A stretch of DNA of 64,000 bases from Lachnospiraceae bacterium. GTDB lineage: Bacteria > Bacillota > Clostridia > Lachnospirales > Lachnospiraceae. The stretch spans positions 1 through 64,000 of the forward strand of contig JAQUVX010000006.1 in assembly GCA_028693165.1 (NCBI GenBank), in the 5' to 3' direction. Of this stretch, positions 13,337 to 29,389 are shown piece by piece; the first letter of the stretch is position 1; each line of letters starts with the position of its first letter. Position numbers and translations under genes: made by a program. The notes under the pieces were generated by a model. That model did not search any database, had not been told where the DNA came from, and worked only from the letters and a program-made list of their open reading frames with translations.

Positions 13337-13360
13337 GACTGCGAAGGTCACCCCGCAGTC
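13337..13360 (-). terminator. weak intrinsic terminator overlapping the relA stop
   Basis: On the minus strand GACTGCG pairs with CGCAGTC, spanning the relA stop codon, and TTTCGTTTTG follows. The short stem and broken T-run suggest partial termination at most. Confidence 0.35.
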
Positions 13361-15627
13361 CTTCCAATATCCAGTACACCCTCAATCTGTCTCAGCTTGT
13401 CCGTCAGACGGTTCAGCTCCTCGACCCCGTGAATGTCAAAGGTCATAATAATGGTCGCCTTGCCCTGCTTACTGGTTCGGACGTTCATCGAAGTAATATC
13501 GATCTGACGTTCGGTAAATACCTTGGAAATATCCACAAACATACCGATCCGGTTGTTTGCATAAATCTGAATCTCTGTCGAGTAACGCTCCTTGCTGTCA
13601 TCGCTCTCCGGTGTCTGCCACTCCGCGTCAATCAGGCGCGCACGCTCATCTGCCGGAAGATTGATGATGTTGACACAGTCCGTTCGGTGAATGGATACGC
13701 CGCGGCCTCTGGTCACGAAGCCCACGATCTCATCCCCCGGAACCGGGCTGCAGCACCTTGAAAACCGAACCGCGATATCATCAATGCCCTTGACCACAAT
13801 CCCGCTCTTGGACTTCTTGGAAACCGGAACCTTGTTGGTCATATCTCCGATGCCGTCCAGAATGTTCTTGTCCGTGACTTCCTTCTTCTGCTTCTTGGTC
13901 TGCTCTTCCAGCATCTTGTTGATGATCTGGCCTTCCTTCAGGCCGCCGTGGCCGATCGAAGCCAACACCGACTCCCAGTCGCGAAACGCGTAGCGCGCCA
14001 TCACCTTCTCCTGGAATTCCGGTTTGTTGATATCCGGGAAGTTGATCCCCTTGGCCTTGCAGTAGCGGTCGATCAGCTCTTTTCCCTTTAAGATGTTGTC
14101 TTCTTTTAATTCATTCTTGAACCACTGGTTGATCTTGTTCTTCGCCTGGGTACTCTTGACCAGGCCCAGCCAGTCTCGGCTCGGTCCCTTGGAGTTCTGA
14201 GAGGTGATGATCTCGATCCGGTCTCCGTTTTGAATCACGTAATCGATGGTCACCAGCTTGCCGTTGACTCTGGCCCCCACCATCTTATTGCCGACCGCAC
14301 TGTGAATCGCGTAGGCAAAATCGATCGGGGTGGAACCACTGGGCAGATTCTTCACATCGCCGGTCGGCGTAAAGCAATACACGCTGTCCGAGAACAGATC
14401 CAAATCGCTCTTGATCAGACTTAAGAATTCTTTGTTGTCGGACATGTCGCGCTGCCACTCCAGAATCTGACGCAGCCAGGAAAGCTTCGCCTCCTCATCG
14501 CCCGCAGCCACGGTGCCGCTTCCGCTCTCTTTGTATTTCCAGTGCGCCGCGATACCGTATTCGGCGGTGCGGTGCATCTCAAAGGTTCGGATCTGAATCT
14601 CAAAGGGCTGACCATTGCTCCCGATCAGCGTCGTGTGAAGAGACTGATACATGTTCGGTTTCGGCATGGCGATGTAATCCTTGAACCGCCCCGGAATCGG
14701 TTTGTACAATTCATGGATAACGCCCAGCGCCGCATAACAGTCCTTGACCGTCTCCACGATGATGCGGACCGCAAACAGATCATAAATCTGATCCAGCGTC
14801 TTGTCCTGATTCACCATCTTCTTATAAATACTAAAGAAGTGTTTGACACGTCCGTCCACCTTTGCATCAATGCTGGCTTCCTTCATGTGCTCCGACACTT
14901 CTGCTACAATCTGTTCTACAAATGCCTCCCGCGCGTCCTGCCGCAGCGAGATCTTCTCTGCCAGCTCATAATAGACCTCCGGCTGCAGATATTTCAAAGA
15001 AAGGTCATCCAGCTCCACCTTGATCTTGGAAATACCAAGACGATGCGCGATCGGCGCGTAGATGTCCATGGTCTCGCGGGCCTTTTCCTTCTGCTTCTCC
15101 GGGCGCATATACTGGAGCGTCCGCATATTGTGCAGGCGGTCGGCCAGCTTGATCAAGATCACCCGGATATCCTTTGCCATGGCAAGGAACATCTTGCGCA
15201 GGTTCTCCGCCTGAATCTCCACCTTGTCCATAGACCAGGACAACTGGGTCAGCTTGGTAACACCGTCCACTAACAGTGCCACCTCAGAGCCAAACTCCTT
15301 CTCCACCTCATCCAGTGTCAGAATCGTATCTTCGACCACATCGTGCAGAATACCTGCCACGATGGTCTCTTTATCCAGCTCCAGATCTGCCAGAATAATG
15401 GCAACACAAAGAGGGTGAATGATATATGGTTCACCCGATTTCCGCTTCTGGTCCTTGTGTGCATCACTGGCCAGACGATATGCTTTTTCAACCATGGAAA
15501 TATCATCAGAAGGATGGTACTTCCTGATGCTTCGGATCAAATCCTGATATAATTCTTCCGGGCTGGTAAAATCCGCGGGATTCTCCAGCTCGATACCCAA
15601 TTTTTTGTCCGTCTCTTCATTTGCCAT
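13348..15627 (-). CDS. relA: bifunctional (p)ppGpp synthetase/hydrolase RelA/SpoT
   Basis: This enzyme makes and degrades the stringent-response alarmones. The 759-aa protein has an N-terminal HD hydrolase domain with intact HDVVEDT, a synthetase domain (YKKMVNQDK, DLFAVRIIV, ECYAALG-like DCYAALGVIHELYKPIPGRFKDYI), a TGS domain (CFTPTGDVKNLPSGSTPIDFAYAIH), a Zn-finger/helical region (ISRCCSPVPGDEI-like FSRCCSPVPGDEIVG) and a C-terminal ACT domain. The frame runs 42 codons further upstream; ATG at 15627 with AAAGGTGG in front is preferred because MANEETDKK begins a normal N terminus. Both active sites look intact, so a Rel-type bifunctional enzyme is inferred. Confidence 0.95.
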   Translation of the reverse strand: MANEETDKKLGIELENPADFTSPEELYQDLIRSIRKYHPSDDISMVEKAYRLASDAHKDQKRKSGEPYIIHPLCVAIILADLELDKETIVAGILHDVVEDTILTLDEVEKEFGSEVALLVDGVTKLTQLSWSMDKVEIQAENLRKMFLAMAKDIRVILIKLADRLHNMRTLQYMRPEKQKEKARETMDIYAPIAHRLGISKIKVELDDLSLKYLQPEVYYELAEKISLRQDAREAFVEQIVAEVSEHMKEASIDAKVDGRVKHFFSIYKKMVNQDKTLDQIYDLFAVRIIVETVKDCYAALGVIHELYKPIPGRFKDYIAMPKPNMYQSLHTTLIGSNGQPFEIQIRTFEMHRTAEYGIAAHWKYKESGSGTVAAGDEEAKLSWLRQILEWQRDMSDNKEFLSLIKSDLDLFSDSVYCFTPTGDVKNLPSGSTPIDFAYAIHSAVGNKMVGARVNGKLVTIDYVIQNGDRIEIITSQNSKGPSRDWLGLVKSTQAKNKINQWFKNELKEDNILKGKELIDRYCKAKGINFPDINKPEFQEKVMARYAFRDWESVLASIGHGGLKEGQIINKMLEEQTKKQKKEVTDKNILDGIGDMTNKVPVSKKSKSGIVVKGIDDIAVRFSRCCSPVPGDEIVGFVTRGRGVSIHRTDCVNIINLPADERARLIDAEWQTPESDDSKERYSTEIQIYANNRIGMFVDISKVFTERQIDITSMNVRTSKQGKATIIMTFDIHGVEELNRLTDKLRQIEGVLDIGRTAG

Positions 15628-15816: not shown

Positions 15817-17628
15817 TTACCGGACGGTGTTTACGCCCTCCAATATCAGGATCTCGAAGCCTTCCTTCTTGCCCTTGAGTCTGATCGGAATGTCTAACGG
15901 ACGCGTCTTGATCCGCTCTCCCAGGGCGTCCGCCACAGCGCGGGAGATGTAGATGGTGCCTGCCGGAGCATTGGACTCCAGCCTTGAGGCGGTGTTTACG
16001 GTATCACCGATAGCAGTGTAATCCATACGGTTGGCGGCACCGATATTGCCCACGACTGCCGGGCCGGTGTGAATGCCAATACCAAAGGACACGCTGCGCC
16101 CGAATTCTTTTTGCAGCTTCTCCGCCAGAACCTTAGAGCCTTCCACCATGTCCAGCGCGGTTAACACTGCGTTCATGACCGGGTCCTCCTGAGGAAGCGG
16201 CGCGCCCCAGAATGCCATGGTTGCGTCACCGATGAATTTGTCCAGGGTTCCTCCATGCTTCATGATGCAGGAGGAGGTCAGCGTCAGATATTCGTTCAGA
16301 ATGCCGACTACCTGCGGCGGCTCAAGCGATTCCGACATCGTGGTAAAGCCGCGGATATCCACAAACAGCACGGTAATGTCACACAGTTTTCCCCCCAGTC
16401 CCAGGGATTTTGTTCCTTCCCGGAGGATCTCATTGACGATCTCCGGGGCCACGTACCGCTTAAAGGTATCGGTCACATGACGTTTTTCCAGCAGATTCAC
16501 GACCGCATGATACAGGACAGAGGCAACATATAAAATGGTCATGCCGCAGGCAATCCACAGCGGATGAACCACCTGCCCCTGCCGATACAGCCATGCGCTG
16601 CCAAGGAGACTTCCGCCGGTGACCGCCAGCCAGAGCGCCGCCCCCGCCTTGAAGGAACAATCTTTTTTCGTCAGAAACAGGCCGCCCGCCAGCATGAGCA
16701 GAAAGAATACCGCCAGCTGGATGCCGTCCCCGGTCTCCTGCTTATAATCCCCTCGAAGCATGGCCTGAATCACATTGGCCTGATACTCCACGCCGTACAT
16801 CGGACGCGCGTGATCGATGGCCGTCGTATAATCATCCTGCATACCTGCCGCGTAAGGTCCGATCAGAACAATCTTTCCTGCGAAATAATCTGCGCCGATC
16901 TCACCTGAGATCAGATCTGCCACGGATATGGATTCGTCGTAGACCCCCGGTTTCCCCGAATAGGGCACATACCAAAAGCCCTGTGCATCCGTCGGAGGAA
17001 GGTTCACTTTGCGTTCCTTCTGATATGCCTGCGCGACAGCAGATGCAAAGGATGGAACCCGCGTCCCATCCTCCAGCGTGATATACAAAAGGCTGTGGCG
17101 AAGAATTCCGTCCTGATCCAGCATGGCATTGACGTGTCCCTGCTCCGTGACCCGCTGCAATGCTTCATAGGGCGCGTCGTAAGCCAGCACGGAAAAGGGA
17201 TCTACATAGAAACTCTTATCAGCATCTTCGACCAGACGGCTGCCAAACTCTGCCGCCGAAGCGGTGACCACATTGTGATACTGCCCCGCCGCCTCAGCAA
17301 GCCAGGCATCCATATCCGGGTCCGTTTCGCCCGCAAAAATCACGTCCACGCCAATAACTGCCGGCCTGCACGCCTCGGACTCATTGAGGGCTTCTATGGT
17401 CATCGCCAGGATGTCGCGCCCCCAATTCTGAAACGGTCCGATATCCTCCAGCGCCTTCTGGTCGATGCCCACAAGAACAATGTTCTCCTCGGTGCCCTCT
17501 CCCCTCTGGCAAAGCCGGTCGGCCACAAGCTGATCGGCCGTGTTTAATACACCACCCGCCAGCGCCAGGGTCAGCAGACCGGATAATGCACCTGCCGCCG
17601 CAAGCTTCTTTAATCTCTTCTTTTCCAT
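15817..17628 (-). CDS. CHASE2-domain class III adenylate/guanylate cyclase
   Basis: The 603-aa protein has an N-terminal membrane segment (about 9-30), an extracytoplasmic CHASE2 sensor domain (about 33-290, with VLVGIDQKALEDIG and KIVLIGPYAAGMQD), three membrane segments (about 305-385) and a cytoplasmic class III cyclase domain. The catalytic set looks complete: metal Asp in VLFVDIRGFTTMSE, Lys and second metal Asp in LDKFIGDATMAFWG, and YTAIGDTVNTASRLE supplying the base-recognition, Asn and Arg positions. The Lys favours ATP, so cAMP is the likeliest product. It is the last gene of a five-gene operon with FecR, NHL, HD-GYP and MBL proteins. Confidence 0.92.
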   Translation of the reverse strand: MEKKRLKKLAAAGALSGLLTLALAGGVLNTADQLVADRLCQRGEGTEENIVLVGIDQKALEDIGPFQNWGRDILAMTIEALNESEACRPAVIGVDVIFAGETDPDMDAWLAEAAGQYHNVVTASAAEFGSRLVEDADKSFYVDPFSVLAYDAPYEALQRVTEQGHVNAMLDQDGILRHSLLYITLEDGTRVPSFASAVAQAYQKERKVNLPPTDAQGFWYVPYSGKPGVYDESISVADLISGEIGADYFAGKIVLIGPYAAGMQDDYTTAIDHARPMYGVEYQANVIQAMLRGDYKQETGDGIQLAVFFLLMLAGGLFLTKKDCSFKAGAALWLAVTGGSLLGSAWLYRQGQVVHPLWIACGMTILYVASVLYHAVVNLLEKRHVTDTFKRYVAPEIVNEILREGTKSLGLGGKLCDITVLFVDIRGFTTMSESLEPPQVVGILNEYLTLTSSCIMKHGGTLDKFIGDATMAFWGAPLPQEDPVMNAVLTALDMVEGSKVLAEKLQKEFGRSVSFGIGIHTGPAVVGNIGAANRMDYTAIGDTVNTASRLESNAPAGTIYISRAVADALGERIKTRPLDIPIRLKGKKEGFEILILEGVNTVR

Positions 17629-17638
17629 ATGTTCCCCG

Positions 17639-18619
17639 CTATCTCGCTGCTGTTATGATCTTTTTTGAAAAATTGTCGCAGATGTATAAAGTATTCCCCT
17701 GAATCGCCATGCCCATGGGGCTGACCGGAATCATGTCCATATTCTTCTCATTGTTGACCAGCAGGGTCGTCACCTGTCCGCCGGATATTCTGCGGATAGC
17801 GCTGTTGCCCGTGTCGGACACATAGATCGTGCCATCCTCGGCAACTTCCACACCCTGCGGATTGGAGAAGCGGCTCTGTGCTGCCGGGCCTCCGGTACTG
17901 CCCTCCATGCCGTCGCCTGCTATGACGGTCTTCTGCCCGTCCTTGATCTGGATGATCCGGTGATTGCCGGACTCTGCGATGTAGAGGCTTCCATTCTGAT
18001 AGCACAGGCCGGTTGGTTCTGAGAGATCAGCGGCGTAAGTCGTGACCTTTCCCGTGAGGTCGACCTTACAGATTCTGTTGTTGGCGGTATCGGCAATGTA
18101 CAAGCTGCCGCCCTCATCCACCGCCAGGCCGGTCGGATTGGAAAATGCTGCCGCTGTTCCGATGCCATTGGCTGCGCCTGTTGTGCCGGACCCCACTGCG
18201 GTTCTGGTCAGCGTGGTATCGATAAACCGCACCACCTGATTGCCCGGGTCAGACACCGCATATCCATCCAGAAATGGGACGATCGCCCACGGTTCCTTAA
18301 AATAGGATTCTGACCGGGCGCTGTCGTGGTAGCCGCCCAAAGGTTCTCCATATAAATCCTGCGTGCTGAGCCGCCCCGCATACAAGGTGCTCTTACCGTC
18401 CTTCACACTCCATACGACCTTGTGGTAGGTATCCGTCACCAGCATGCTGCCGTCTCCGGCAAAGATCACGTCCGAGGGGGCACATATAATATCCATGGCA
18501 CTCGCATCGCCCCACGCGGTTCCCGCCAGCAGCAGCGCACCTGCGGCGGCCGCTGCTGCGGTAAGGATATGATGCCGGATTCCATGAATCGAAATTGCTT
18601 TTGAACGATTCTTTTTCAT
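17639..18619 (-). CDS. exported NHL-repeat beta-propeller protein
   Basis: The 326-aa protein has a signal sequence (basic SKAISIHGIRHH, hydrophobic Ala-rich core, TAWGDASA cleavage region). It continues as NHL repeats recognisable by GLAVDEGGSLYIADTANNRI, GLCYQNGSLYIAESGNHRI and GVEVAEDGTIYVSDTGNSAI, i.e. a six-bladed propeller facing outside the membrane. Such propellers bind ligands or proteins; no catalytic residues are claimed. The frame opens 15 codons upstream but ATG at 18619, 1 bp after the FecR stop and preceded by AAAGGGGGA, is the likely start. It lies between FecR and the CHASE2 cyclase and may be a sensory partner. Confidence 0.85.
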   Translation of the reverse strand: MKKNRSKAISIHGIRHHILTAAAAAAGALLLAGTAWGDASAMDIICAPSDVIFAGDGSMLVTDTYHKVVWSVKDGKSTLYAGRLSTQDLYGEPLGGYHDSARSESYFKEPWAIVPFLDGYAVSDPGNQVVRFIDTTLTRTAVGSGTTGAANGIGTAAAFSNPTGLAVDEGGSLYIADTANNRICKVDLTGKVTTYAADLSEPTGLCYQNGSLYIAESGNHRIIQIKDGQKTVIAGDGMEGSTGGPAAQSRFSNPQGVEVAEDGTIYVSDTGNSAIRRISGGQVTTLLVNNEKNMDMIPVSPMGMAIQGNTLYICDNFSKKIITAAR

Positions 18620-18620
18620 G

Positions 18621-21600
18621 TTATTCTTCCCCCTTTCGGCCGCCTGTGGTGGCTGCGGGATCAATCATGCTCTCTGTCGCCTTCGGGTCAGTCAGGTCGG
18701 TCGGTGCTGCACCTGCGGCCGGTATGGCGGTTTTCGCAGGATCGTCGGTCTCCGTCGGTTCTGCATTGGACTGCGTGGCTTTTGGTACTTCCTCTTTCTC
18801 CGGCCTTCCCTGTGCATGCGCCGCGTCGGATGATGCTGCATCAGACGGTGTCGCATCGGATGGGCTTGCCAGATCATTGATCAGATCTACGTCCTGGTCC
18901 TCGCCCTGATCCTCATCATCCACATAAGTCGGTGAAAGGATCACTTCCGGGAGCAGGGTCATGCGGGCAGGCTCACGCAGGCCGAGGTAGCTGATCCCGG
19001 CAGTATCTGTCAGCACTTGATAGATCTTCAGACCAGGATCGTTTTCCTCAAGCCAGTTCTCACGTTCCAAATCAGTTCCGTTCTCAATCTTTACTACGAG
19101 AGAATCTCTTCCGTGGCTTATCATCTGATCCTGACCATCAAGGTCAAAATCACCGGTCAATTTGATTGTCGAAAGATCCCGGTTCTCATCCCAATCAATA
19201 TATAACGCTCCGAAAGCACCCTCTCTCTGATCAATCACCTTCGCCCCGTTAAAATTCAGTTCCGTACCATTTGCTCTTCCGGCAACATAGATCAGGGCTG
19301 AATCAGCGGCAGCATCGCCGGCACCTGGCTCATTGGATATCTCGGTTCCATCATTTAAATTCACCTGTACATTCTCATCGTAAATCTGGATGGCAGAATT
19401 CGTGGGATTGGAAAATATGGTCGAATTGTTGATGTTCGCAACCATATGACCATCCATCAGCGGCTCCTCTCCCGGGTTCCCGAATGTAAGACAGCCGATG
19501 CATTCGGAGCCTTCTATCTTCACAGATACCGGTGCCGCATCCGATACCGCACAGATCAATCCCGCCCCATCTACGATGTCGCTGTCTGCGTACAAATTTA
19601 CCTGATCAATGTTCAGGGAAGCACCATCCTCCAGGTAAAAGAGCGCACGGTCACCCTCCCCCGATGGAATCAAGTTGACGCTGGCCACAGCATCACTGCC
19701 CTCTATATAACCGTCGTTTCTCAGGTTCAAGGTCACACTTCCCATCAAAGTTGCATCACCGGGATCGTTTGTCGCTGCTCCGACACTATACAGCCTGCTG
19801 CCATTGAGATTCAGTGTAATCTCCTTTTCGCCCCCTGCATCTGTGATCTGGAACGGTTCGCTTTCCTGGAAATTTCTATATATCGGAAGCAGTATCTGCC
19901 GCTTGTTCTCTGCGGACTCAAGCAATGGTTTTATGATATTCATGACCAAATGATCATCATTTTCCTCTATATTCCATATGTCTGCAATCCGGAGTCCATA
20001 ATCCGGCGACGGCTCCGCTATGAGAATTGCCGCTTCCCCATTAACCTCTGTCAGCTCTGTTTGAGTCGGGTCTTCCGGATACCGTCTCTGGTTTCGGAAT
20101 CGGATACCAGCACTGACACCGGACGGCATAAACTGTTTCAGCTCTCTGGCGTAAAGCTCCACCTCTTCGCCAATTTCCATCACGGAATCGCCGTCACATT
20201 TCAAGGTATAAGCGCGGTCAGAATCAGCGATGATCTGACCGCCACGGATGTCAACGGTACTTCCGGCTCCGATACTGTGAACCGCAGCCTCTGCATCGCC
20301 CGACCGGACGGTCCCGGATTCCATGGTATAGGTTCCGCCGTTTACCACAACGCCACCTGTCACAATGGCCGCACCGATCTGACACGATCCGCCCGTGATC
20401 TCCAGCCGGTTAATTTTGGCATCAGCCAGTGTCAGCCTGGCCGCTGCCGACAAACTTCCATCATGGACAAAACCTGCATTGGCCGTAAAGGTACCTGTGC
20501 TTGTCAGATTCCCATGATTCACCGAGCTGCCGTTCAATTCCAGCGTCCCATCGTTTTGAAACGTCCCCTGATTGTCAAAGGATTCATTGACCACCGCACG
20601 TCCCGTATTGAAAAAGGTTCCCGCGTTGACCATGCCCCGGTTCGCGGTATAGGTATGCATGCTGGTGTTGTTGATCGTGCCGTTGTTTGTTACCGCACCA
20701 TCCGTCGTGTAGGTACCGTCGACCTGGAAGGTGCGGCCGGAATTGACCACAGTATCCACCCCCTGCTCCATGTTTAAAAAACCACCGGCAGGAATCTGCA
20801 CATCATGATCAAGTTGCAGCGTCTGATGTGCTCCTCCCGAATTTAAGATCACGTTGCTGTCTGTCAGATGACGGTTCAGCACCTCTGCGGTGATTGGCAT
20901 GGACAGGGTTGTGGTCTTTCTGCCCGTCGTGGCCATAGTTCCGTCAGAATCCTTGTCCGTGGTCCCGGTCTTAAATACCGGATCCACGAGTTTCTGGCTC
21001 TCCTGCTGCTCCTGCATCGTAAGAATCTGCAACATCTTTCTTCTTGTCTCCGCCTCATCCTGCGCCAGACGTTCCCTGGCCTGTTCCAGCGTAAGCGTCA
21101 GGTCAAAGCCTGTGGCGGCCTCGATCTTTCGGCGCAGCTCAGAATCCCCTGTGATCTCCATAAGCACAAAACCCGGAATATTCGTTTCTGTGTAGTCCTC
21201 CAGAATGATCTCCGCGCGTCTGCCATTGACCGGTTCGTCATAGACAAAGGCTTTTCCCACCTTGCCCGGCGGGATCAAACACCGATCCTCGTCTCCGGTG
21301 ACCGGATTGCGCACGATACAGTCGACCAGTCCCTCCAGCACATAAAATTCGCTGTAATGGTCATTGATCACCTTGACCCACCCCGCGGTTCCACGGATTC
21401 CCGTGACCATGGTCGAAGTCCGGATATTCATATTCTCTTCCCCGCTCAGCGGCGCAGCCACGTTGAAGAACAGGTTGCCTGACTGAAGCATCAGCTCCAG
21501 CTCCTTCCCCTGCTGGCGGATCTCCGCCTGGCTGACTGCGTCCATTTTAGCTGCTCGGTTCTCGTCCAGCCCTATGTAAGCATAACTCCCCATCTCGGTT

Positions 21601-21824
21601 TTGACCTGATATCCATTATATAGCTTCATGTCATTGATCAGCGAAACTTCTCTTCCATTCTTGTTCCTGACCTTGACCGTTCCCTCTGTCTGGCTCAGCC
21701 GCAGTGTGGTCGCCCGCGCATTGTCTGCCAATGCAGGAAAGGTTCCCTCCGCGACCATGCAGATCATAAGCGCAACCGCACAGATTCTGCGTCTCCACTG
21801 GTGTACTCCGTTTCTCTTCTCCAT
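18621..21824 (-). CDS. large secreted FecR-domain protein with repeat-rich body
   Basis: The protein is about 1067 aa. It has an N-terminal signal peptide (RRRICAVALMICMVAEG to FPALADNA), then a FecR domain (about 40-210) with LRLSQTEGTVKVRNKNGREV, LQSGNLFFNVA and STMVTGIRGTAGWV. A coiled-coil-like stretch is followed by a beta-solenoid-like region (about 320-570) rich in short VNNGT, NQGTF, NDGTL, NHGNL turns, more Gly/Asn-rich sequence, and a Ser/Thr/Ala/Pro/Asp-rich tail. No sorting signal or transmembrane anchor is visible at the C terminus. Unlike classical FecR it is not a short anti-sigma partner, and no ECF sigma gene is near. ATG at 21824 fits the GAGGGT SD better than ATG at 21830. 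Confidence 0.85.
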   Translation of the reverse strand: MEKRNGVHQWRRRICAVALMICMVAEGTFPALADNARATTLRLSQTEGTVKVRNKNGREVSLINDMKLYNGYQVKTEMGSYAYIGLDENRAAKMDAVSQAEIRQQGKELELMLQSGNLFFNVAAPLSGEENMNIRTSTMVTGIRGTAGWVKVINDHYSEFYVLEGLVDCIVRNPVTGDEDRCLIPPGKVGKAFVYDEPVNGRRAEIILEDYTETNIPGFVLMEITGDSELRRKIEAATGFDLTLTLEQARERLAQDEAETRRKMLQILTMQEQQESQKLVDPVFKTGTTDKDSDGTMATTGRKTTTLSMPITAEVLNRHLTDSNVILNSGGAHQTLQLDHDVQIPAGGFLNMEQGVDTVVNSGRTFQVDGTYTTDGAVTNNGTINNTSMHTYTANRGMVNAGTFFNTGRAVVNESFDNQGTFQNDGTLELNGSSVNHGNLTSTGTFTANAGFVHDGSLSAAARLTLADAKINRLEITGGSCQIGAAIVTGGVVVNGGTYTMESGTVRSGDAEAAVHSIGAGSTVDIRGGQIIADSDRAYTLKCDGDSVMEIGEEVELYARELKQFMPSGVSAGIRFRNQRRYPEDPTQTELTEVNGEAAILIAEPSPDYGLRIADIWNIEENDDHLVMNIIKPLLESAENKRQILLPIYRNFQESEPFQITDAGGEKEITLNLNGSRLYSVGAATNDPGDATLMGSVTLNLRNDGYIEGSDAVASVNLIPSGEGDRALFYLEDGASLNIDQVNLYADSDIVDGAGLICAVSDAAPVSVKIEGSECIGCLTFGNPGEEPLMDGHMVANINNSTIFSNPTNSAIQIYDENVQVNLNDGTEISNEPGAGDAAADSALIYVAGRANGTELNFNGAKVIDQREGAFGALYIDWDENRDLSTIKLTGDFDLDGQDQMISHGRDSLVVKIENGTDLERENWLEENDPGLKIYQVLTDTAGISYLGLREPARMTLLPEVILSPTYVDDEDQGEDQDVDLINDLASPSDATPSDAASSDAAHAQGRPEKEEVPKATQSNAEPTETDDPAKTAIPAAGAAPTDLTDPKATESMIDPAATTGGRKGEE

Positions 21825-21850
21825 ATGCATACCCTCTTGCGTATCATATC

Positions 21851-23320
21851 TTACGCTTCCTTTGCATTGTCCCAGCTTCTGCTCTCGATAAACTGCCTCG
21901 TGAGTGCAATGTCAAGCTTTCCCTCTTTTTCCGCCATGGCCTGTAGAATCGATAATGCCTTCTCCGCCGGCATACCTGGTTTGTATGGTCTGTCGTCCGC
22001 CGTCAGGGCATCGTAAATGTCCAGAATGGTAAGAATACGGACCTCGTAGGGCACCGCTTCCCCGCTTATGTGCTCCGGATAACCGGTCCCGTTGATATAT
22101 TCGTGATGACTGGATGCCCAGCGAATCACATGCTCATACTGCTTCGGAAATTCAATCTCGGAGAGCAGCTTTCGCGTGATCTTGACATGTTCCTCCATGA
22201 TCTGGCGCTCCTCCCCGGTCAGCGTTCCTTTCCGGATCTGCAAACGATGAAGCTCATCCTCCGTCAGCCAGTGTTTCTTCGGATTCTCCGGGCAGGTATA
22301 TTCTGCCAGCCGCTCAATCTCCGCCAGCGTCTCATCCGGCAGAAAGCCCGCCTCATTGGCACGAAAGATCAGCTTCTCGCCCTCCTCCATGCGCGCAATG
22401 CCAGTGCTGTAATCTTCCTCTGACAGCTTCTGTTCCAATAGCTGAATTTTCAGCCGCAGCCTCATAGTTTCAAAACGATACTGAATATCCTTCATTTCCT
22501 GGGGCGTCAGGCGTGCCGCCTTATTCATGATCTCCAGAGGCGTCACCAGTTTTCCGATATCATGAAACCATACGCTCATAAGAAATTCTTCTTTTCGCTC
22601 CGGCCCAAACAGCACCTCTTCTCCCGCATCGGTCTGCTTCTGATTCAGGTAATCGACAAACCGCTCCCCATAGCGGACCATATTTCTGGTATGGGTGGCA
22701 TTGTACGGCGTCCTCTCATCAATCGCGGTGGACATGACCTGCACAAAGGAGTGAAACAGGCCCTTGATCGCCGTTAAATATTCCATATTCTGGATCGCTA
22801 CCGCCGCCTGAGAAGCCACGGATTCGACCAGGCGGACACAATCCTTCGCAAATGGAATCGTCTCCTTCGCTTCGTTCTGAGCATTGATGAGCTGTAAGAC
22901 GCCGCTGATCTCTCCTCTCCGGTTCTTCATGGGCACGACCAGCATGGACTGTGAATGATAGTGCGTAATCTTGTCATACTGAATCGGACCGGACAAATCA
23001 TATTCCCTGCAGTTCCACACATCGTCGATGCAGATCGTCTGCTCGGTCAGCGCCGCCAGTCCGCTGACCGTCCCGGATGAGATGGGTACCGGCGGAAGAT
23101 CCACCGCCTCGCCGTCGCCTCCCTGGTAGGTTTTCATGGTGTCATTTCTCATGATCTTGAAATTCAAATAATCGCCAGTCTTCAAATACAGCGTCCCTGC
23201 GTCACAGTTGGTCAGCCACATCACGTCGGATAAAATCTGTTCCAGAAGACGATTGTAATCCTTTTCCTCGGATAATGCGATGCCAATTTCCAATATTTTT
23301 TGCAGTTTTTCTGTCGTCAT
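21851..23320 (-). CDS. GAF-HD-GYP cyclic-nucleotide phosphodiesterase-like protein
   Basis: The 489-aa cytoplasmic protein has a GAF domain (about 15-178; TNCDAGTLYL, MLVVPMKNRRGEISGVLQLINA) and an HD-GYP domain: ATHTRNM (about 209), HDIGK (253-257), HHEYINGTGYP (405-415) and LDIYDALTADDRPYKPG. HD-GYP enzymes hydrolyse cyclic di-nucleotides. The spacing between HDIGK and HHE is about 150 residues because of a helical insert (about 272-362). ATG at 23320 overlaps the stop of the preceding MBL gene as ATGA and has GGAG 8 bp upstream, so it is preferred to the longer frame. Confidence 0.9.
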   Translation of the reverse strand: MTTEKLQKILEIGIALSEEKDYNRLLEQILSDVMWLTNCDAGTLYLKTGDYLNFKIMRNDTMKTYQGGDGEAVDLPPVPISSGTVSGLAALTEQTICIDDVWNCREYDLSGPIQYDKITHYHSQSMLVVPMKNRRGEISGVLQLINAQNEAKETIPFAKDCVRLVESVASQAAVAIQNMEYLTAIKGLFHSFVQVMSTAIDERTPYNATHTRNMVRYGERFVDYLNQKQTDAGEEVLFGPERKEEFLMSVWFHDIGKLVTPLEIMNKAARLTPQEMKDIQYRFETMRLRLKIQLLEQKLSEEDYSTGIARMEEGEKLIFRANEAGFLPDETLAEIERLAEYTCPENPKKHWLTEDELHRLQIRKGTLTGEERQIMEEHVKITRKLLSEIEFPKQYEHVIRWASSHHEYINGTGYPEHISGEAVPYEVRILTILDIYDALTADDRPYKPGMPAEKALSILQAMAEKEGKLDIALTRQFIESRSWDNAKEA

Positions 23321-24171
23321 AGTACGATCTCCATCCCCTCTTTTGCGAAGATACAATCCGGATCCTCGCGCTGCGCCAACTGTTCCTGAAACTCCAATTC
23401 CTGATCGGTCATCTGCCAGTCATAATGCGTGCATATGACCTTCTTCGCTCCGCTTCGCTGTTTCAGCCGGATTCCCGCATTCCAGGAGGAATGACCCCAG
23501 CCCTTTTTTTCTTCCAGCTGAGCTTCCAGATACTGAGCGTCGCTGATCAGCAGATCACAATCTCTGCAAAAGGGTGTCAGCCTGTCCAAAAGCTTTGCAT
23601 CCATCTCGCAGTCCAGCCCGTAGTACAAGGATTTCTCCCCCAGCTCCGCCCGGAAAAGCAGGGTGCCGTCCGGATGCTGCCCGGCTGCGGTGCGAACCGT
23701 CACGCCCTGACACTGCACACAATCTCCTGCCCGGATCGTGCGAAATTGGATTCGGGCCGGCATGTCAGCCAGCTTTACCGGCCAGTAAGGCGGCCGGATG
23801 AGATCGGTAAGCAGCGACTGAATCGAGACCCCATCCTTTTCCTCACCGTACAGTATAATTTCTCTTCCTGAATCAAAAAAAGGAGAAAAGAGATAAAACC
23901 CCATGACATGATCGATATGTACATGACTGAGAAATATACATATCATCTGTGGTTTTAACTCGTTTTCTCCTTGTTTATAACCCGTATCTTCCTGATGCCT
24001 GATCCAGTTTCCAAGCTCCGCCAGTCCGCTTCCTGCATCGAAAACAAGCAGTCCCTGGCCGGTTTCAACAGAAACACAGCTGGTATTGCCGCCATACCGC
24101 ATATGGTTTTCTTTTGTGCTGGGGAAGGAACCTCTGGTTCCCCAAAAATGGATCTTCATCTGGTTTGTCAT
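23317..24171 (-). CDS. MBL-fold phosphodiesterase-like hydrolase
   Basis: The 284-aa protein starts with KIHFWGTRGSFPS and YGGNTSCVSV, followed by VFDAGSGLAELG and the metal motif LSHVHIDHVMGF (His83, His85, Asp87, His88), and late HSSWN and ICTHYDW His residues. This GTRGS-type MBL family includes phosphoribosyl-cyclic-phosphate and 3',5'-cyclic-nucleotide phosphodiesterases. Its placement as first gene of an operon that ends with a cyclase suggests turnover of a cyclic nucleotide, which is an inference. The start has AGAGGT 8 bp upstream. Confidence 0.85.
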   Translation of the reverse strand: MTNQMKIHFWGTRGSFPSTKENHMRYGGNTSCVSVETGQGLLVFDAGSGLAELGNWIRHQEDTGYKQGENELKPQMICIFLSHVHIDHVMGFYLFSPFFDSGREIILYGEEKDGVSIQSLLTDLIRPPYWPVKLADMPARIQFRTIRAGDCVQCQGVTVRTAAGQHPDGTLLFRAELGEKSLYYGLDCEMDAKLLDRLTPFCRDCDLLISDAQYLEAQLEEKKGWGHSSWNAGIRLKQRSGAKKVICTHYDWQMTDQELEFQEQLAQREDPDCIFAKEGMEIVL

Positions 24172-24204
24172 ACGATTGACCTCTTTTTCTAAAACTTTGT
24201 GCTT

Positions 24205-24233
24205 ATTATACTAAATTCGGCACTCTTTTTCCA
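24205..24233 (-). promoter_or_regulatory. possible promoter of the MBL/HD-GYP/FecR/NHL/cyclase operon
   Basis: TATAAT (24205-24210) lies about 35 bp before the first start codon. The matching -35 position holds TGGAAA (24228-24233, 17 bp spacing), which is poor and suggests activator dependence. A perfect 13-bp tandem repeat (24244-24269) lies just upstream. Confidence 0.45.
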
Positions 24234-24299: not shown

Positions 24300-24938
24300 C
24301 TATCTGGTCACGAGATACATCAGGGCATTGCAGATTGCGGCGGCGATATTGCTGCCCCCTTTCCGCCCCTTCGCGACGATACAGGGAATCGCACACTGTG
24401 CGATCAGCTCCTTGGATTCCACCACATTCACAAACCCAACCGGCGCACCGATAATGAACGCCGGATGCAGCTCACCGCTGCCGATCATCTCATAGAGGCG
24501 GATCAGCGCGGTCGGCGCATTGCCGATGGCAAACAGAACCGGACCGGAAAGCCGCGCCGCATGTTCCATGCTGACGATGGCACGGGTCACGCCGCGCTGT
24601 TTCGCCTCGGCGGCAACCGCTTCCTCCGCCATGAAACAGCGCACCGATCCGCCCAGCTTTTGCAGCGCACCCTTGTTAATCCCGGCGGCGGCCATATTGG
24701 TGTCTGTCACAATCGTAAATCCGGTTCCGCTTCGGAAGATATCCAGTGCGCGTTCCACCGCCTCCGGCGAAAAATACAGGGCAGACGCATAGTCAAAATC
24801 CGCCGAGGTGTGAATGCAGCGTTTGACCACCGCAAGCTCTCCCTCTGTCCAGTCGCCCTTTGGCATCTCCTGCTCAATGATTTCCATGCTCCGCGCCTCG
24901 ATCTCTTCCGGGCGAACCCATTGCATCTGTTCCAGCAT
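24300..24938 (-). CDS. cbiC: precorrin-8X/cobalt-precorrin-8 methylmutase CbiC
   Basis: CbiC moves the C11 methyl group to C12, forming hydrogenobyrinate or cobyrinate. The 212-aa protein has the catalytic His in RCIHTSADFDYA (about residue 47), VTDTNMAAAGINK, FAIGNAPTAL and IIGAPVGFVNVVESKE, all typical of the family. Length is normal. It is the last gene of the five-gene cobalamin cluster, 2 bp after cobQ. Confidence 0.95.
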   Translation of the reverse strand: MLEQMQWVRPEEIEARSMEIIEQEMPKGDWTEGELAVVKRCIHTSADFDYASALYFSPEAVERALDIFRSGTGFTIVTDTNMAAAGINKGALQKLGGSVRCFMAEEAVAAEAKQRGVTRAIVSMEHAARLSGPVLFAIGNAPTALIRLYEMIGSGELHPAFIIGAPVGFVNVVESKELIAQCAIPCIVAKGRKGGSNIAAAICNALMYLVTR

Positions 24939-24940
24939 TT

Positions 24941-26542
24941 TTATTCCTCCATCAGGCGGTAGATCGCCTCCAGATCCAGGGAACTGCGCACCAGATCTGC
25001 CAGCTTGTCATATTGCCGCTCCTTATAGTCTTTCCGGCTCTCGCCGGTTGTTTCCAGGGAAATCCCCTTCTTCTTTGCCAGGTGGGAAAGCAATGCTTCC
25101 GTCCACGCTTCATTGTCAAACAGTCCGTGCAGATAGCTTCCAAACACCAGACCATCGTCCCGCACCAGACCGTCCAGACGGCCATCCTCCAGAAGGATCG
25201 CCGGGGTGGCGGAGGGGTGCGTTGAAGACATGGCCGGATGCGCAGATGCCGGGGCAAGCGCAGATGTCAGGGCTGATCCCTGCGCGTCCGACTCCGGCAC
25301 GTCGCACAGGCGCGTCACTCCCATATGAATCTCATATCCCACAACCGGGAGCTCTGCTCCCTCTGCATACATTCCGGCCGCAGCCTGCATGACACCCTGA
25401 ATCTGCGTCCGGGTCTTCCGGCTTGCAAAAATCGTTTCCGCCGGCAAAAGTCCCATGCCCCGCATGGTTCCTCCATGCTCCACCTGCTCCGGGTCGGCCA
25501 GCCGTTCTCCCAGCATCTGATACCCGCCGCAGATGCCGATGAGCGGTATTTTCTCCGACACCTGATGTGCGATGGCCGCCTCCAGCCCGGATTCCCGCAG
25601 CCATGCAAGATCCGCCATGGTATTCTTCGTCCCCGGAAGGAGGATCAGATCCGGCTTTCCAAGCTGTGCCGCGCGGTTCACATAGCGCAAGGCCACACCG
25701 CCAAACTGCTCCAGCGCATTAAAATCCGTAAAGTTGGAAATATGCGGCAGATGAATGACCGCGATATCCAGTCCATTCGCGGATGCATCCCCTGCGCTCT
25801 GCCCAGATCCCACCTGACTCAGCCGGTCAGACAGGCTGTCCTCGTCGTCCAGATCAATCTGCTCCATGGGAATGACCCCAAGCACCGGGATATGCAGCCG
25901 CTCCTCGATCATGCGAAGCCCCAGCTCCAGAATCTTCACATCGCCGCGGAATTTGTTGATCAGAAGTCCTTTGATCCGCGCCTGCTCCTCCGGCTCCAAA
26001 AGACTGACGGTCCCGTAAAGAGATGCAAACACACCGCCCCGGTCGATATCTCCCACCAGCAGAACCGGTGCATCTGCCAGCTTCGCCATACCCATGTTGA
26101 CGATGTCATTGTCCCGCAGATTGATTTCCGCCGGGCTTCCGGCTCCCTCCAGCACAATGATGTCGTACTGCTCTTCCAGCCTTGCAAACGCCTCCCGAAT
26201 GACCGGGATAAATTCCGGCTTCCGCCGATAGTATTCCATCGCCTTTAAATTGCCGTAAACCTCACCGTTTACGATGACCTGACTTCCCATCTGGCTCGTC
26301 GGCTTCAACAGGATCGGATTCATATCCACCGTCGGTGCAATCCCCGCCGCCTCCGCCTGCATGGCCTGAGCGCGGCCGATCTCCAGCCCGTCTTTGGTAA
26401 TGTAGGAGTTCAGCGCCATATTCTGCGATTTAAAGGGGGCCACCCGGTATCCGTCCTGGCGGAAAATGCGGCACAGTGCCGCCACCAGAAAGCTCTTCCC
26501 GGAATTGGACATGGTGCCCTGAATCATAAGTTTCTTTGCCAT
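24941..26542 (-). CDS. cobQ: cobyric acid synthase CbiP/CobQ
   Basis: This ATP-dependent amidotransferase amidates four side chains of adenosyl-cobyrinate diamide. The 533-aa protein has an N-terminal P-loop-like synthetase domain (GTMSNSGKSFLVAALCRIF, SQNMALNSYIT, LEGAGSPAEINL) and a C-terminal glutaminase domain with the nucleophile Cys in IGICGGYQMLG and a late SYLHGLFDN His motif. ATG at 26542 overlaps the preceding TGA (TGATG); a TTG one codon earlier is possible. A Ser/Ala/Pro-rich insert (around residues 415-445) interrupts the glutaminase domain and looks like a flexible loop. Confidence 0.95.
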   Translation of the reverse strand: MAKKLMIQGTMSNSGKSFLVAALCRIFRQDGYRVAPFKSQNMALNSYITKDGLEIGRAQAMQAEAAGIAPTVDMNPILLKPTSQMGSQVIVNGEVYGNLKAMEYYRRKPEFIPVIREAFARLEEQYDIIVLEGAGSPAEINLRDNDIVNMGMAKLADAPVLLVGDIDRGGVFASLYGTVSLLEPEEQARIKGLLINKFRGDVKILELGLRMIEERLHIPVLGVIPMEQIDLDDEDSLSDRLSQVGSGQSAGDASANGLDIAVIHLPHISNFTDFNALEQFGGVALRYVNRAAQLGKPDLILLPGTKNTMADLAWLRESGLEAAIAHQVSEKIPLIGICGGYQMLGERLADPEQVEHGGTMRGMGLLPAETIFASRKTRTQIQGVMQAAAGMYAEGAELPVVGYEIHMGVTRLCDVPESDAQGSALTSALAPASAHPAMSSTHPSATPAILLEDGRLDGLVRDDGLVFGSYLHGLFDNEAWTEALLSHLAKKKGISLETTGESRKDYKERQYDKLADLVRSSLDLEAIYRLMEE

Positions 26543-27297
26543 CAAGCCTTCCCCTTTCGGTACGCGTGGGTGAACGTTTCATCGTACAGCTTCGACAAGG
26601 CAAACTCGTCTCCCAAAAATCTGCCCACCGTCACAAGCGCCGTCTTCCGAATGCCCGCCGCCTGCACCTTCGCCGCGATATCTGTGAGCGTTCCCTGCAC
26701 AATTTTTTCATCCTGCCAGGATGCCTTGTACACCACCGCCGCCGGGGTATCCGCCGGATATCCGCCCTGCTGCAGCCGCCTGCTCAGCTCGTCCATCTGC
26801 CCGACGCTCAGGAAAATGATCATGGTCGCCTGATGCGCCGCCAATGCCTCGATCTGTTCCTTTTCCGGCATGGGGGTTCTGCCCTCCATGCGGGTCAGAA
26901 TAACGGTCTGGCTGACTTCCGGAAGTGTATATTCCCGCTTCATCGCCGCGGCCGCCGCCAGAAACGAGCTGACTCCCGGCACCACATCATAGGCAATGCC
27001 CAGACGGTCAAGCTCCGTCATCTGTTCCCGATGCGCCCCGTAGATCGAAGGGTCGCCGGTATGCACCCGCACCACCTGTCTGCCCTGTTCCTCGCCCGCC
27101 TGCATCACGGAGATCACTTCTGGAAGCGTCATCGTGGCGCTGTTGTAAATCTCCGCCTCCGGCTTTGCGCCCTGCAGCACCTGGGGATTGACCAGAGAGC
27201 CTGCATAAATAATGATATCTGCCTCATCGATCAGCCGTTTTCCTTTCAATGTAATCAGCTCCGGGTCACCGGGACCCGCTCCGATAAAATGTATCAT
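26542..27297 (-). CDS. cbiF: (cobalt-)precorrin-4 C11-methyltransferase CbiF/CobM
   Basis: CbiF transfers a methyl group from SAM to C11 of the corrin ring. The 251-aa protein opens IHFIGAGPGDPELITLKG, then IIIYAGSLVNP, RVHTGDPSIYGAHREQM and VPGVSSFLAAAAAM, the standard tetrapyrrole methylase core in the C11 subfamily form. An upstream open frame of 18 codons is rejected because GGAGG stands 7-8 bp before ATG 27297. It overlaps cobQ by one base (TGATG). Confidence 0.94.
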   Translation of the reverse strand: MIHFIGAGPGDPELITLKGKRLIDEADIIIYAGSLVNPQVLQGAKPEAEIYNSATMTLPEVISVMQAGEEQGRQVVRVHTGDPSIYGAHREQMTELDRLGIAYDVVPGVSSFLAAAAAMKREYTLPEVSQTVILTRMEGRTPMPEKEQIEALAAHQATMIIFLSVGQMDELSRRLQQGGYPADTPAAVVYKASWQDEKIVQGTLTDIAAKVQAAGIRKTALVTVGRFLGDEFALSKLYDETFTHAYRKGKA

Positions 27298-27351
27298 GGG
27301 TTTTCCTCCATCCTGACTGCCGCCGCATAACCGGCCGGCCTCTATGTGCAA

Positions 27352-28428
27352 TTACTGTAATTTTTCATAAGCATCAATCTGAATTTCTGCAAAAGTGCTG
27401 TTCTCCAGATAGACGGTGTAAGCCATCTCCAGCAGCGGAAACAGCATGACCGCACCGGTTCCCTCGCCCAGGGCCAGCGCCCCATAAATGACCGGCTCCA
27501 GCCCAAGCTTCTCCATCGCAAGACGACAGGCCGGCTCTTTTCCCAAATGGGAGGGCAGGATGTAATCCGTGACCTGCGGGCAGAATGCCTGGGCCAGAAG
27601 CGCCGCCACCGCCGAGATCATCCCGTCCAGCACGACCGGAATCCCATAAATGGCCCCGCCCAGCAAAAGTCCCGTCATTCCGGCAATGTCAAAGCCGCCC
27701 AGTGCCGCCAATGCAGGAAGGGGTCTGGACGCATCCGGCTGATGCAGGCGGATCGCATCCTCGATAACCTGGATTTTCCGCTGCAGTCCGTCTCCGGACA
27801 AGCCTGCGCCGCGCCCGGTCACCGCCTCCACCGGCTGCCCCAGCAGAACACTGGCCAGTGCACTGCTGGTCGTGGTATTGCCGATCCCCATCTCGCCTAC
27901 AGCGAGCAGATCATATCCGGCATCCTTAAGCTCTCCCGCCAGCGCAATCCCCGTATGGATTGCCTCCAGCGCCTGTTCCTCGCTCATGGCCGGCTCCCTG
28001 CGCAGATTCGCAGTCCCGCGGGCGATCTTGCAATTTCGCACCCCCGGCTCCCGAATCTCGCCTGCAACCCCCATGTCCACCGGAAGCACATCGGCTCCGG
28101 CCACCGCCGCCATGCGGTTGACGCTTGCAATGCCTTTTGCAAAATTTTCCGTCACCACGGCGGTCACGCTGCTGTCCGTCTGGGTCACGCCCTCCGCGAC
28201 CACGCCATTGTCCGCACAGAATACGACCACGGCTTTTCGCTCCAGCGACACCGCCTCGGTTTTCTGAATCCCGGCAATCTTCGTGATCATCTTCTCAAAC
28301 TGCCCCAGCCCCTCCAGCGGTTTTGCGATTCCGTCCCAATGCCTGCGCGCCGCGTCCATCGACGCCGGATCCGCCGGATGAATATTTTTGCAAAGGCAGG
28401 CAAGCTGCTGCCGATAATAAGTTTCCAT
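27352..28428 (-). CDS. cobT: nicotinate-nucleotide:dimethylbenzimidazole phosphoribosyltransferase CobT
   Basis: CobT activates the lower-ligand base by making alpha-ribazole phosphate. The 358-aa protein has GLGQFEKMITKIAG, VFCADNGVVAEGVTQT, VDMGVAGE, GEMGIGNTTTSSAL, TGRGAGLSGDGLQRK and the catalytic Glu region LALGEGTGAVMLFPLLEMA. The frame extends 16 codons upstream; ATG at 28428 with AAAGGAG upstream is chosen. It lies between cbiH and cbiF, coupling lower-ligand activation with ring synthesis. Confidence 0.95.
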   Translation of the reverse strand: METYYRQQLACLCKNIHPADPASMDAARRHWDGIAKPLEGLGQFEKMITKIAGIQKTEAVSLERKAVVVFCADNGVVAEGVTQTDSSVTAVVTENFAKGIASVNRMAAVAGADVLPVDMGVAGEIREPGVRNCKIARGTANLRREPAMSEEQALEAIHTGIALAGELKDAGYDLLAVGEMGIGNTTTSSALASVLLGQPVEAVTGRGAGLSGDGLQRKIQVIEDAIRLHQPDASRPLPALAALGGFDIAGMTGLLLGGAIYGIPVVLDGMISAVAALLAQAFCPQVTDYILPSHLGKEPACRLAMEKLGLEPVIYGALALGEGTGAVMLFPLLEMAYTVYLENSTFAEIQIDAYEKLQ

Positions 28429-28468
28429 TATTGTGTCACTCCTTTTGTGCATGATCTGGCTGGCCCTG

Positions 28469-29290
28469 TCAGCCAATCTTATATCCCCGCGGCGTCACCA
28501 TTCGGCCGCCGATCACCTTCGTCTGCGAATTGCCGATGAACACGGTGGTAAACATATCCACCTGGCGATCCTTTAACTGGGAAAGTGTCATCACTTCCGC
28601 CATCTCGCCTTCCCGACCGATCTGGCTGACAATTCCGCAGACCCGCTCGCCGTCCAGCTCCTCCATCATGATCTCGCAGGCCCGCCGCAGATAATCCGCA
28701 CGCTTTTTGCTGGACGGATTGTAGATGCAGACTGCAAAGTCCCCCGCCGCCGCACAGCGCAGACGTTTTTCAATCTTCTCCCACGGAGTCAGCAGATCAC
28801 TCAGACTGATGACCGCAAAATCATGCATCAGCGGAGCGCCAAGCACCGCACCGCCAGCCAGCGCCGCAGTCACGCCGGAAATCACATTGACCCGGCAGTC
28901 AGGGTATTCCTCGCCCAGCTCCAGCATCAGCCCGGACATGCCATACACCCCCGCATCTCCGCTGCAAACCATCGCCACACGCTTGCCCTTTCGCGCCTCC
29001 TCAAATGCCATGCGGCACCGATCCACCTCCTGACGCATGGGCGTCGTCAGATATTCCTTTTCCGGAAACATCGTCTGAAGCAGCTCCACATATACAGTAT
29101 ATCCCACAATCATGTCACTTTGCTCCAGCGCCTGCCGCGCCTCCAGCGTCATCTGCTCCATGCTCCCCGGCCCCATGCCGATTACGTCGATGTGACGTAA
29201 GGCTTCTGCCTGCATTTCTGCTTCTGTTCCTGCTTCCGTTCCTGCTTCCTTCATATAACGCGCATCCTGATATTCGCCCAGTCCCTTCAT
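28469..29290 (-). CDS. cbiH: (cobalt-)precorrin-3B C17-methyltransferase CbiH/CobJ
   Basis: CbiH methylates C17 and drives ring contraction. The roughly 273-aa protein has VIGMGPGSMEQMTLEARQAL, MIVGYTVYVELL, VCSGDAGVYGMSGLMLEL, GVTAALAGGAVLGAPL and IYNPSSKKR, typical of the family. The family core starts near residue 34: a Glu/Ala/Thr-rich N-terminal extension with tandem EAGTEAGTEAE precedes it, so a start further inside cannot be excluded. ATG 29290 has AGAGGTGG 8 bp upstream; the longer frame would use GTG 29302. Confidence 0.93.
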   Translation of the reverse strand: MKGLGEYQDARYMKEAGTEAGTEAEMQAEALRHIDVIGMGPGSMEQMTLEARQALEQSDMIVGYTVYVELLQTMFPEKEYLTTPMRQEVDRCRMAFEEARKGKRVAMVCSGDAGVYGMSGLMLELGEEYPDCRVNVISGVTAALAGGAVLGAPLMHDFAVISLSDLLTPWEKIEKRLRCAAAGDFAVCIYNPSSKKRADYLRRACEIMMEELDGERVCGIVSQIGREGEMAEVMTLSQLKDRQVDMFTTVFIGNSQTKVIGGRMVTPRGYKIG

Positions 29291-29389
29291 CACGCATTCC
29301 ACCTCTTATCTATTTTCTCAAATGTTAGTCCGATTTCAATTCTTACCTGATGTATCATAGCATATCACTCATTATTTTGCATCAAAATA

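Follow-up and report, generated by a model that had tools for sequence, protein, structure and literature searches.

Does the run of five minus-strand genes at positions 15,817 to 24,233 of a Lachnospiraceae contig encode one signalling unit and, if so, which messenger would each of its enzymes make, receive or remove? The run lies in what we call the window, a stretch of 64,000 nt (positions 1 to 64,000 of the forward strand of contig JAQUVX010000006.1, assembly GCA_028693165.1), and encodes a metallo-β-lactamase (MBL)-fold hydrolase, a GAF-HD-GYP protein, a FecR-domain protein, an NHL propeller and a CHASE2 class III cyclase. A preliminary description had read it as a self-contained system in which the two hydrolases clear the messenger made by the cyclase. 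Evidence on cyclic AMP (cAMP) in Firmicutes is conflicting, and the majority of these bacteria lack adenylate cyclases, according to the accessible part of one source (PMC5217690). Comparison across genomes indicates that the run is a genuine signalling unit, conserved and of a type known in another phylum, and that its likely novelty is a coupling to cyclic di-GMP (c-di-GMP).

Results

The five genes, all on the minus strand, are transcribed from 24171 to 15817. The first (23317..24171) encodes an MBL-fold hydrolase of the GTRGS family (Pfam Lactamase_B_2), a candidate cAMP phosphodiesterase, and the second (21851..23320) a GAF-HD-GYP protein (Pfam GAF and HD_5), a candidate cAMP-regulated cyclic-dinucleotide phosphodiesterase. 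They are followed by genes for a FecR-domain protein of 1069 aa (18621..21830; Pfam FecR) and an NHL-repeat propeller of 326 aa (17639..18619; Pfam NHL), both likely exported, and finally for a CHASE2 sensor joined to a class III adenylate cyclase (15817..17628; Pfam CHASE2 and Guanylate_cyc). The intergenic distances in this order are −4 (an ATGA overlap), 20, 1 and 10 nt, and the tight packing first described, with its overlap and its 1-nt gap between FecR and NHL, is confirmed by the coordinates. ATG starts are possible for the NHL gene at 18619 and for the HD-GYP gene at 23320, which makes the longer TTG starts of the open reading frame listing unnecessary. Searches of the 3.6-Mb draft genome found a single FecR, a single CHASE2 and a single class III cyclase domain, all of them inside the operon.

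The partners of the cyclase were found to travel with CHASE2. In a sample of 250 genomes of the window's family, CHASE2 was present in 45 (in G187 the only CHASE2 is an HD-GYP fusion) and absent from 205. FecR occurred in 41 genomes at E 1e-3 (40 above the cut-off), comprising 37/45 with CHASE2 and 4/205 without (Fisher p 8e-32, this and the following p values being optimistic because the genomes are related and independence is overstated), and 41 of the 57 FecR matches lay within 10 kb of CHASE2. The operon-type MBL (E < 1e-80) was found in 18 genomes, 16 with CHASE2 and 2/205 without (p 1e-11; 15/19 matches within 12 kb), the weakly matching genomes G065 and G092 being dropped (16/20 with them). 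Full-length GAF-HD-GYP proteins occurred in 32 genomes, 29 with CHASE2 and 3/205 without (p 4e-23; 26/32 matches within 12 kb), not counting six further genomes with the HD-GYP part alone. The NHL protein was present in nine genomes, all with CHASE2, and in 0/205 others (p 1e-7; each within 12 kb); the model had been built with eight of these and found the ninth (G074). Because the MBL, NHL and GAF-HD-GYP profiles (A1, A3 and A4) derive from CHASE2 loci, their own members match by construction, and the informative figures are the 2, 0 and 3 of 205 genomes. The co-occurrence across the family that the preliminary description had proposed as a check is found for FecR, NHL and MBL, and for GAF-HD-GYP as well. 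Twenty arbitrary 20-kb control stretches from CHASE2-positive genomes contained no FecR and no operon-type MBL; they gave three matches to the HD-GYP part (without GAF and without the insertion described below), besides single matches to NHL (partial), to the SpoIIE part and to RsbW. Together, the genome co-occurrence and the control stretches rule out a chance neighbourhood.

Linkage was then examined at 130 loci: 49 from the family, 80 named loci from Lachnospiraceae, Oscillospiraceae, Selenomonadales and other Clostridia, and the window. The named loci are those closest to the window cyclase, and the rates below hold for its kin. Removal of four CHASE2-HD-GYP fusions, one fragment and three duplicates left 122 distinct loci, 67 of them flanked on either side by 5 kb or more. 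On the same strand and within 10 kb of the cyclase, these 67 loci carried an MBL, either by itself or as part of a fusion, in 44 cases, a GAF-HD-GYP, GAF-GGDEF or MBL-GAF-GGDEF protein in 48, any cyclic-nucleotide-type receiver or sensor-domain protein in 56, and NHL in 15. A protein matching a local profile seeded on the window FecR domain was present in 58/67, a count that may be too high: all 58 FecR-labelled loci match the profile, a G.RGT-like motif is found in 39 of them, and five of seven such proteins submitted singly to Pfam exceeded the FecR cut-off, with no FecR match for L099 and L140. The identical five-gene order (MBL, HD-GYP, FecR, NHL, CHASE2) recurs in L052, L095 and L099, FecR being confirmed by Pfam in the first two and identified in L099 by the local profile and a GIRGT motif. 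The neighbourhood is, as had been anticipated, conserved in relatives. In 21 of the 122 loci a xylose-isomerase-like TIM barrel of about 260 aa with an FEYNDFF-like motif also lies near the cyclase (e.g., L032:7669-8448; PF01261, Pfam being run on L032 only).

Several observations, besides the possible excess in the FecR count, weigh against the interpretation proposed in the Discussion. The Pfam genome search gave no FecR for 8/45 CHASE2-positive genomes (for G019, at least, this is a miss, the protein scoring 42 bits by itself); 29/45 have no operon-type MBL; the one congener sampled (G172) gave no CHASE2, FecR, MBL, NHL or GAF-HD-GYP match; and two of the 67 loci (L050 and L094) have no labelled partner, L094 being the nearest relative of the window cyclase (60% identity), with none within 10 kb. 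The L094 cyclase is preceded by a run of small exported proteins resembling, by eye, sortase and TasA/pilin-type surface proteins (L094:1-9721).

The window cyclase has hydrophobic segments at residues 9-28, before CHASE2, and at 300-321 and 353-372, at or after its end. The class III catalytic residues D424, K464, D468, T538, N545 and R549 are all present; we take them to be the two metal-binding Asp, the substrate Lys/Thr and the transition-state Asn/Arg, with a Lys/Thr pair presumably of the kind that selects ATP. All six are found in 43/46 aligned CHASE2-labelled proteins, the window's counted, L050 and L054 deviating and L079 being a fragment. The best Protein Data Bank (PDB) matches of the window cyclase are adenylate cyclases, and we infer that its product is cAMP.

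The FecR domain of the window protein scores 33.2 bits against PF04773 (cut-off 24), and a single hydrophobic segment at the N terminus, consistent with export, is present in both the FecR and the NHL protein. Beyond the FecR domain, the labelled proteins of relatives vary, with BspA-type leucine-rich repeats (L095:2889-8414), Big_2 repeats (L140:6583-9993) or an EndoS-type leucine-rich repeat (L045:5676-7943), as if different surface modules had been attached. At four loci CHASE2 is fused directly to HD-GYP (L058:8418-10466, L065:9656-11710, L068:8612-10654 and L074:8403-10517). FecR lies directly next to the fusion gene in three of these four, which suggests a tie to the sensor CHASE2 and not to the cyclase. 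The earlier proposal that exported FecR and NHL proteins are joined to a CHASE2 cyclase and cytoplasmic enzymes in one conserved unit is upheld by the linkage; that they act on CHASE2, we infer.

In the MBL protein, the putative metal ligands H83, H85, D87, H88, H166, D187 and H249 (HxHxDH and others, a role that we assume) are invariant in 15/15 sequences. Since its family is nearly confined to CHASE2 genomes and since, next to cyclases of this type, 14 distinct proteins of relatives join an MBL domain to GAF-GGDEF, its likeliest role would be that of a cAMP phosphodiesterase. Sequence and family comparisons weigh against this assignment: the nearest PDB relative of the window protein as a single sequence is RNase Z, and its score against the NCBIfam cyclic-nucleotide phosphodiesterase model NF041851 is 31.5 bits, the cut-off being 400. 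Profile A1 gave 1zkp, RNase Z and 6kns and reached Apyc1 (7u2s), which we take to be a cyclic-nucleotide hydrolase, at 3e-4; the fused MBL domains of relatives have a weak Pfam Apyc1 match under the cut-off. The protein might, then, act on a downstream nucleotide or an RNA-like substrate, cAMP being removed by another enzyme or by export. The RNase Z relationship speaks for this alternative, which leaves the confinement to CHASE2 genomes (16/18) and the fusions to GAF-GGDEF without a place, and we consider it unlikely while allowing it substantial weight.

The HD-GYP protein of the window retains the HDxGK, HH and GYP motifs, so that the intact catalytic motifs claimed earlier for the cyclase, MBL and HD-GYP proteins agree with our residue checks. 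Among the HD-GYP proteins of 450-570 aa, HDxGK is present in 52/52 and G.GYP in 51/52. An insertion of about 95 residues separates HDxGK from HHE in the window protein and its family: the spacing is 152-154 in 47 of the 52, and among 12 HD-GYP proteins of other lengths it is 52-60 in six and 148-154 in six. Among solved structures, the HD-GYP part is matched best by V-cGAP3, a cyclic GMP-AMP (cGAMP) phosphodiesterase. Because the genome holds 15 GGDEF matches, a substrate for the HD-GYP enzyme can be made. A second HD-GYP protein in the same genome (G000:C32:87854-88762) matches the profile from position 187 onward, without the GAF part.

The only solved matches of the window GAF at E 0.01 are PDE5 (best 4e-11) and CyaB2 (1e-7). 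In CyaB2 (1ykd), the contact residues are Arg291, Thr293, Asp356, Asn359 and Ile308, as given in the accessible text of PMC4411481. At the positions of the first four and of the NKFDE Asn and Lys, the window GAF has A, T, D, T, N and A. Its likeness to CyaB2 lies in the significant sequence match and in Thr293 and Asp356, two of the five contact positions; it differs in having Ala for Arg291, Arg for Ile308, Thr for Asn359 and Ala for the NKFDE lysine. Similar departures run through the HD-GYP set, with A or G at the Arg291 position in 51/52 proteins (the window's included; a gap in the remaining one) and A at the NKFDE lysine in 41/52. These substitutions count against cAMP as the ligand, and the window GAF may bind something else.

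The relatives put these substitutions in another light. The slot beside the cyclase is filled there by a GAF-HD-GYP protein, a GAF-GGDEF protein or an MBL-GAF-GGDEF fusion; GAF-GGDEF replaces GAF-HD-GYP in one locus of the window's family (L066), in Lachnospiraceae L123, L131 and L140, and in Selenomonadales L166, L169 and L171. Compared with solved structures, the L140 GAF gave its best match to the GAF-HD-GYP protein 4mcw (3e-26), followed by CyaB2 (2e-25) and by GAFs of cyclic-nucleotide phosphodiesterases, among them PDE5, PDE10 (4e-16), PDE2 and PDE6. At the six positions just described, the MBL-GAF-GGDEF proteins carry R, S, D, T (one S), N and K in 14/14, and R, S, D, T, N and K occur in 8/9 short GGDEF proteins, the ninth (L095) being by eye a receiver-domain protein; these counts were taken from sets chosen without the motif that contains the Arg, which avoids circularity. 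Judged by these residues, the GAFs of the GGDEF forms are of the cAMP-binding type. The window GAF would then be a diverged case in which the family context favours cAMP sensing.

A competing reading keeps the unit but makes the HD-GYP GAF a sensor of another ligand, both branches reading the same envelope signal in parallel and the cAMP receptor lying elsewhere in the genome. It accommodates the loss of the Arg and Lys positions from the HD-GYP GAF set and the CHASE2-HD-GYP fusions, which suggest that CHASE2 is able to drive HD-GYP without cAMP. It does not account for the cAMP-type residues retained by GAF-GGDEF proteins in the same slot, and no better receptor was found: inspection by eye of the four PF00027 proteins of the genome, other receptor types not being searched, revealed none with GE...R[ST], which we take to be the phosphate-binding cassette of CRP-type receptors. 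We doubt this reading, while leaving it an appreciable place beside the one in which the HD-GYP GAF senses cAMP.

Further candidate receivers occur in other relatives. The run may include a cNMP_binding-SpoIIE phosphatase with STAS, RsbW-type and GGDEF proteins (e.g., L032, L034, L039 and L048) or a cNMP_binding-DUF2225 protein (e.g., L045, L047 and L048); the cNMP_binding proteins were checked with Pfam for L032, L045 and L051 and assigned elsewhere by a local profile. The DUF2225 type carries GEMAIFDN..RSAS, a GE...RSA cassette that we assume to be the usual cAMP form, and the SpoIIE type has GELGL....RGA, departing from the cassette.

The surroundings of the operon were also surveyed. A promoter-like site (TGGAAA-17-TATAAT, 24205..24233, minus strand; 10/12 consensus matches) lies upstream; the scan found 15 such sites against 10.1 expected from shuffles, so that the site taken alone is weak evidence. 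Farther upstream, the genes at 24300-29302 resemble, by eye, a cobalamin biosynthesis cluster. Downstream of the cyclase by 189 nt, and again by eye, is a RelA/SpoT-type (p)ppGpp (RSH) gene (13348-15627), and no terminator-like site was detected on the minus strand of the interval between the two. Cotranscription of this gene with the operon would bring in a third nucleotide messenger. As a member of the unit it was rejected, because, in the stretches read at the family's 49 loci, nothing but a 149-aa fragment in L077 was labelled RSH.

Discussion

We propose an extracytoplasmic sensing module in which CHASE2 and two exported proteins, FecR and NHL, would together regulate the intracellular adenylate cyclase. 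In the window genome, the most likely receiver of the cAMP made would be the GAF of the HD-GYP protein from the same operon; cAMP binding would change the breakdown of c-di-GMP or another cyclic dinucleotide, and the MBL hydrolase would remove cAMP. Our confidence in this chain, taken whole from the envelope to c-di-GMP, is evenly balanced. Applied to the relatives, the same logic gives a modular relay from envelope to cAMP to c-di-GMP, widespread in Clostridia and Selenomonadales, in which FecR, NHL and CHASE2 would drive the cyclase, the receivers (GAF-HD-GYP, GAF-GGDEF, MBL-GAF-GGDEF, and cNMP-SpoIIE with STAS/RsbW) would be exchangeable, and the CHASE2-HD-GYP fusion would short-circuit the relay in some genomes. 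We hold this more general proposal tentatively, with somewhat less than even confidence.

The HD-GYP protein is better read as a receiver because a GGDEF synthase with a cAMP-type GAF takes its place in some relatives. Precedents exist for such a receiver: Lcd1 of Leptospira (GAF-GGDEF) and Tlr0485 of Thermosynechococcus (a GAF-HD-GYP c-di-GMP phosphodiesterase) are cAMP-activated, according to the accessible text of PMC8846402. Tlr0485 resembles the window protein in its GAF and HD-GYP architecture and in the proposed logic, although the window GAF is without two canonical positions and its HD-GYP part has the HDxGK-HHE insertion; Lcd1 resembles the GAF-GGDEF proteins of the sibling loci, not the window protein. 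Both likenesses are of architecture. By this analogy, the HD-GYP protein more likely receives cAMP and couples it to c-di-GMP, as described for these two proteins.

The claim that the two hydrolases clear the cyclase product is not supported: HD-GYP acts on cyclic dinucleotides, not on cAMP, and the MBL protein is left as the sole candidate of the two for clearing cAMP. A scheme in which both enzymes make up the degrading arm for one messenger can point to the cyclic-nucleotide phosphodiesterases within the MBL superfamily and to the weak Apyc1 matches noted above, but the V-cGAP3 match of the HD-GYP part and the ability of a GGDEF synthase to occupy its slot make it improbable. That the genes are unrelated signalling genes in ordinary packing, with no shared function, is very improbable, since the variation of gene order and content among relatives and the partnerless L094 cyclase are outweighed by the co-occurrence and proximity statistics, the control stretches free of FecR and MBL, and the MBL-GAF-GGDEF and CHASE2-HD-GYP fusions.

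A cluster of CHASE2 adenylate cyclase, phosphodiesterase, FecR and TPR genes is known in Campylobacterota (PMC9239204). As far as the accessible portion of that paper goes, the two systems share a CHASE2 adenylate cyclase and a FecR-domain protein together with a phosphodiesterase, said there to hydrolyse cAMP; they differ in that FecR is an outer-membrane protein there and is accompanied by a TPR protein, whereas the unit described here belongs to Bacillota and has an NHL propeller, a GTRGS MBL and a GAF-HD-GYP protein. No TPR family matched any of the five window proteins at E 0.01. In Sinorhizobium, the FecR-domain protein SMc02177 also belongs to a cAMP pathway, as a target of the cAMP regulator Clr, and the available part of that source mentions no MBL, NHL or GAF enzyme (PMC5498481). 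The novelty first claimed for the whole arrangement is thus narrowed: the general plan is known from another phylum, and the form seen in Clostridia, which adds NHL, MBL and GAF/c-di-GMP enzymes, did not appear in our searches of the open-licence literature.

A Tyr or Phe in TrmD has been linked to cAMP-making Firmicutes (PMC5217690, in the part accessible). This position, said to guard against cAMP, was Tyr or Phe in all 30 genomes compared (L194-L223), 16/16 with and 14/14 without a class III cyclase, other cyclase classes not being searched, and we set it aside as an uninformative marker.

In summary, comparison across genomes identified a conserved gene set that recurs in many gut Clostridia, in which cAMP signalling is little known, and that offers a concrete genetic system for asking whether Firmicutes use cAMP. 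For FecR and NHL proteins, the unit suggests a part in sensing. A further prediction is that two second messengers are wired together, with a sign that follows from whether the operon encodes HD-GYP or GGDEF; if the modular relay is true, the sign of the c-di-GMP response would differ between lineages.

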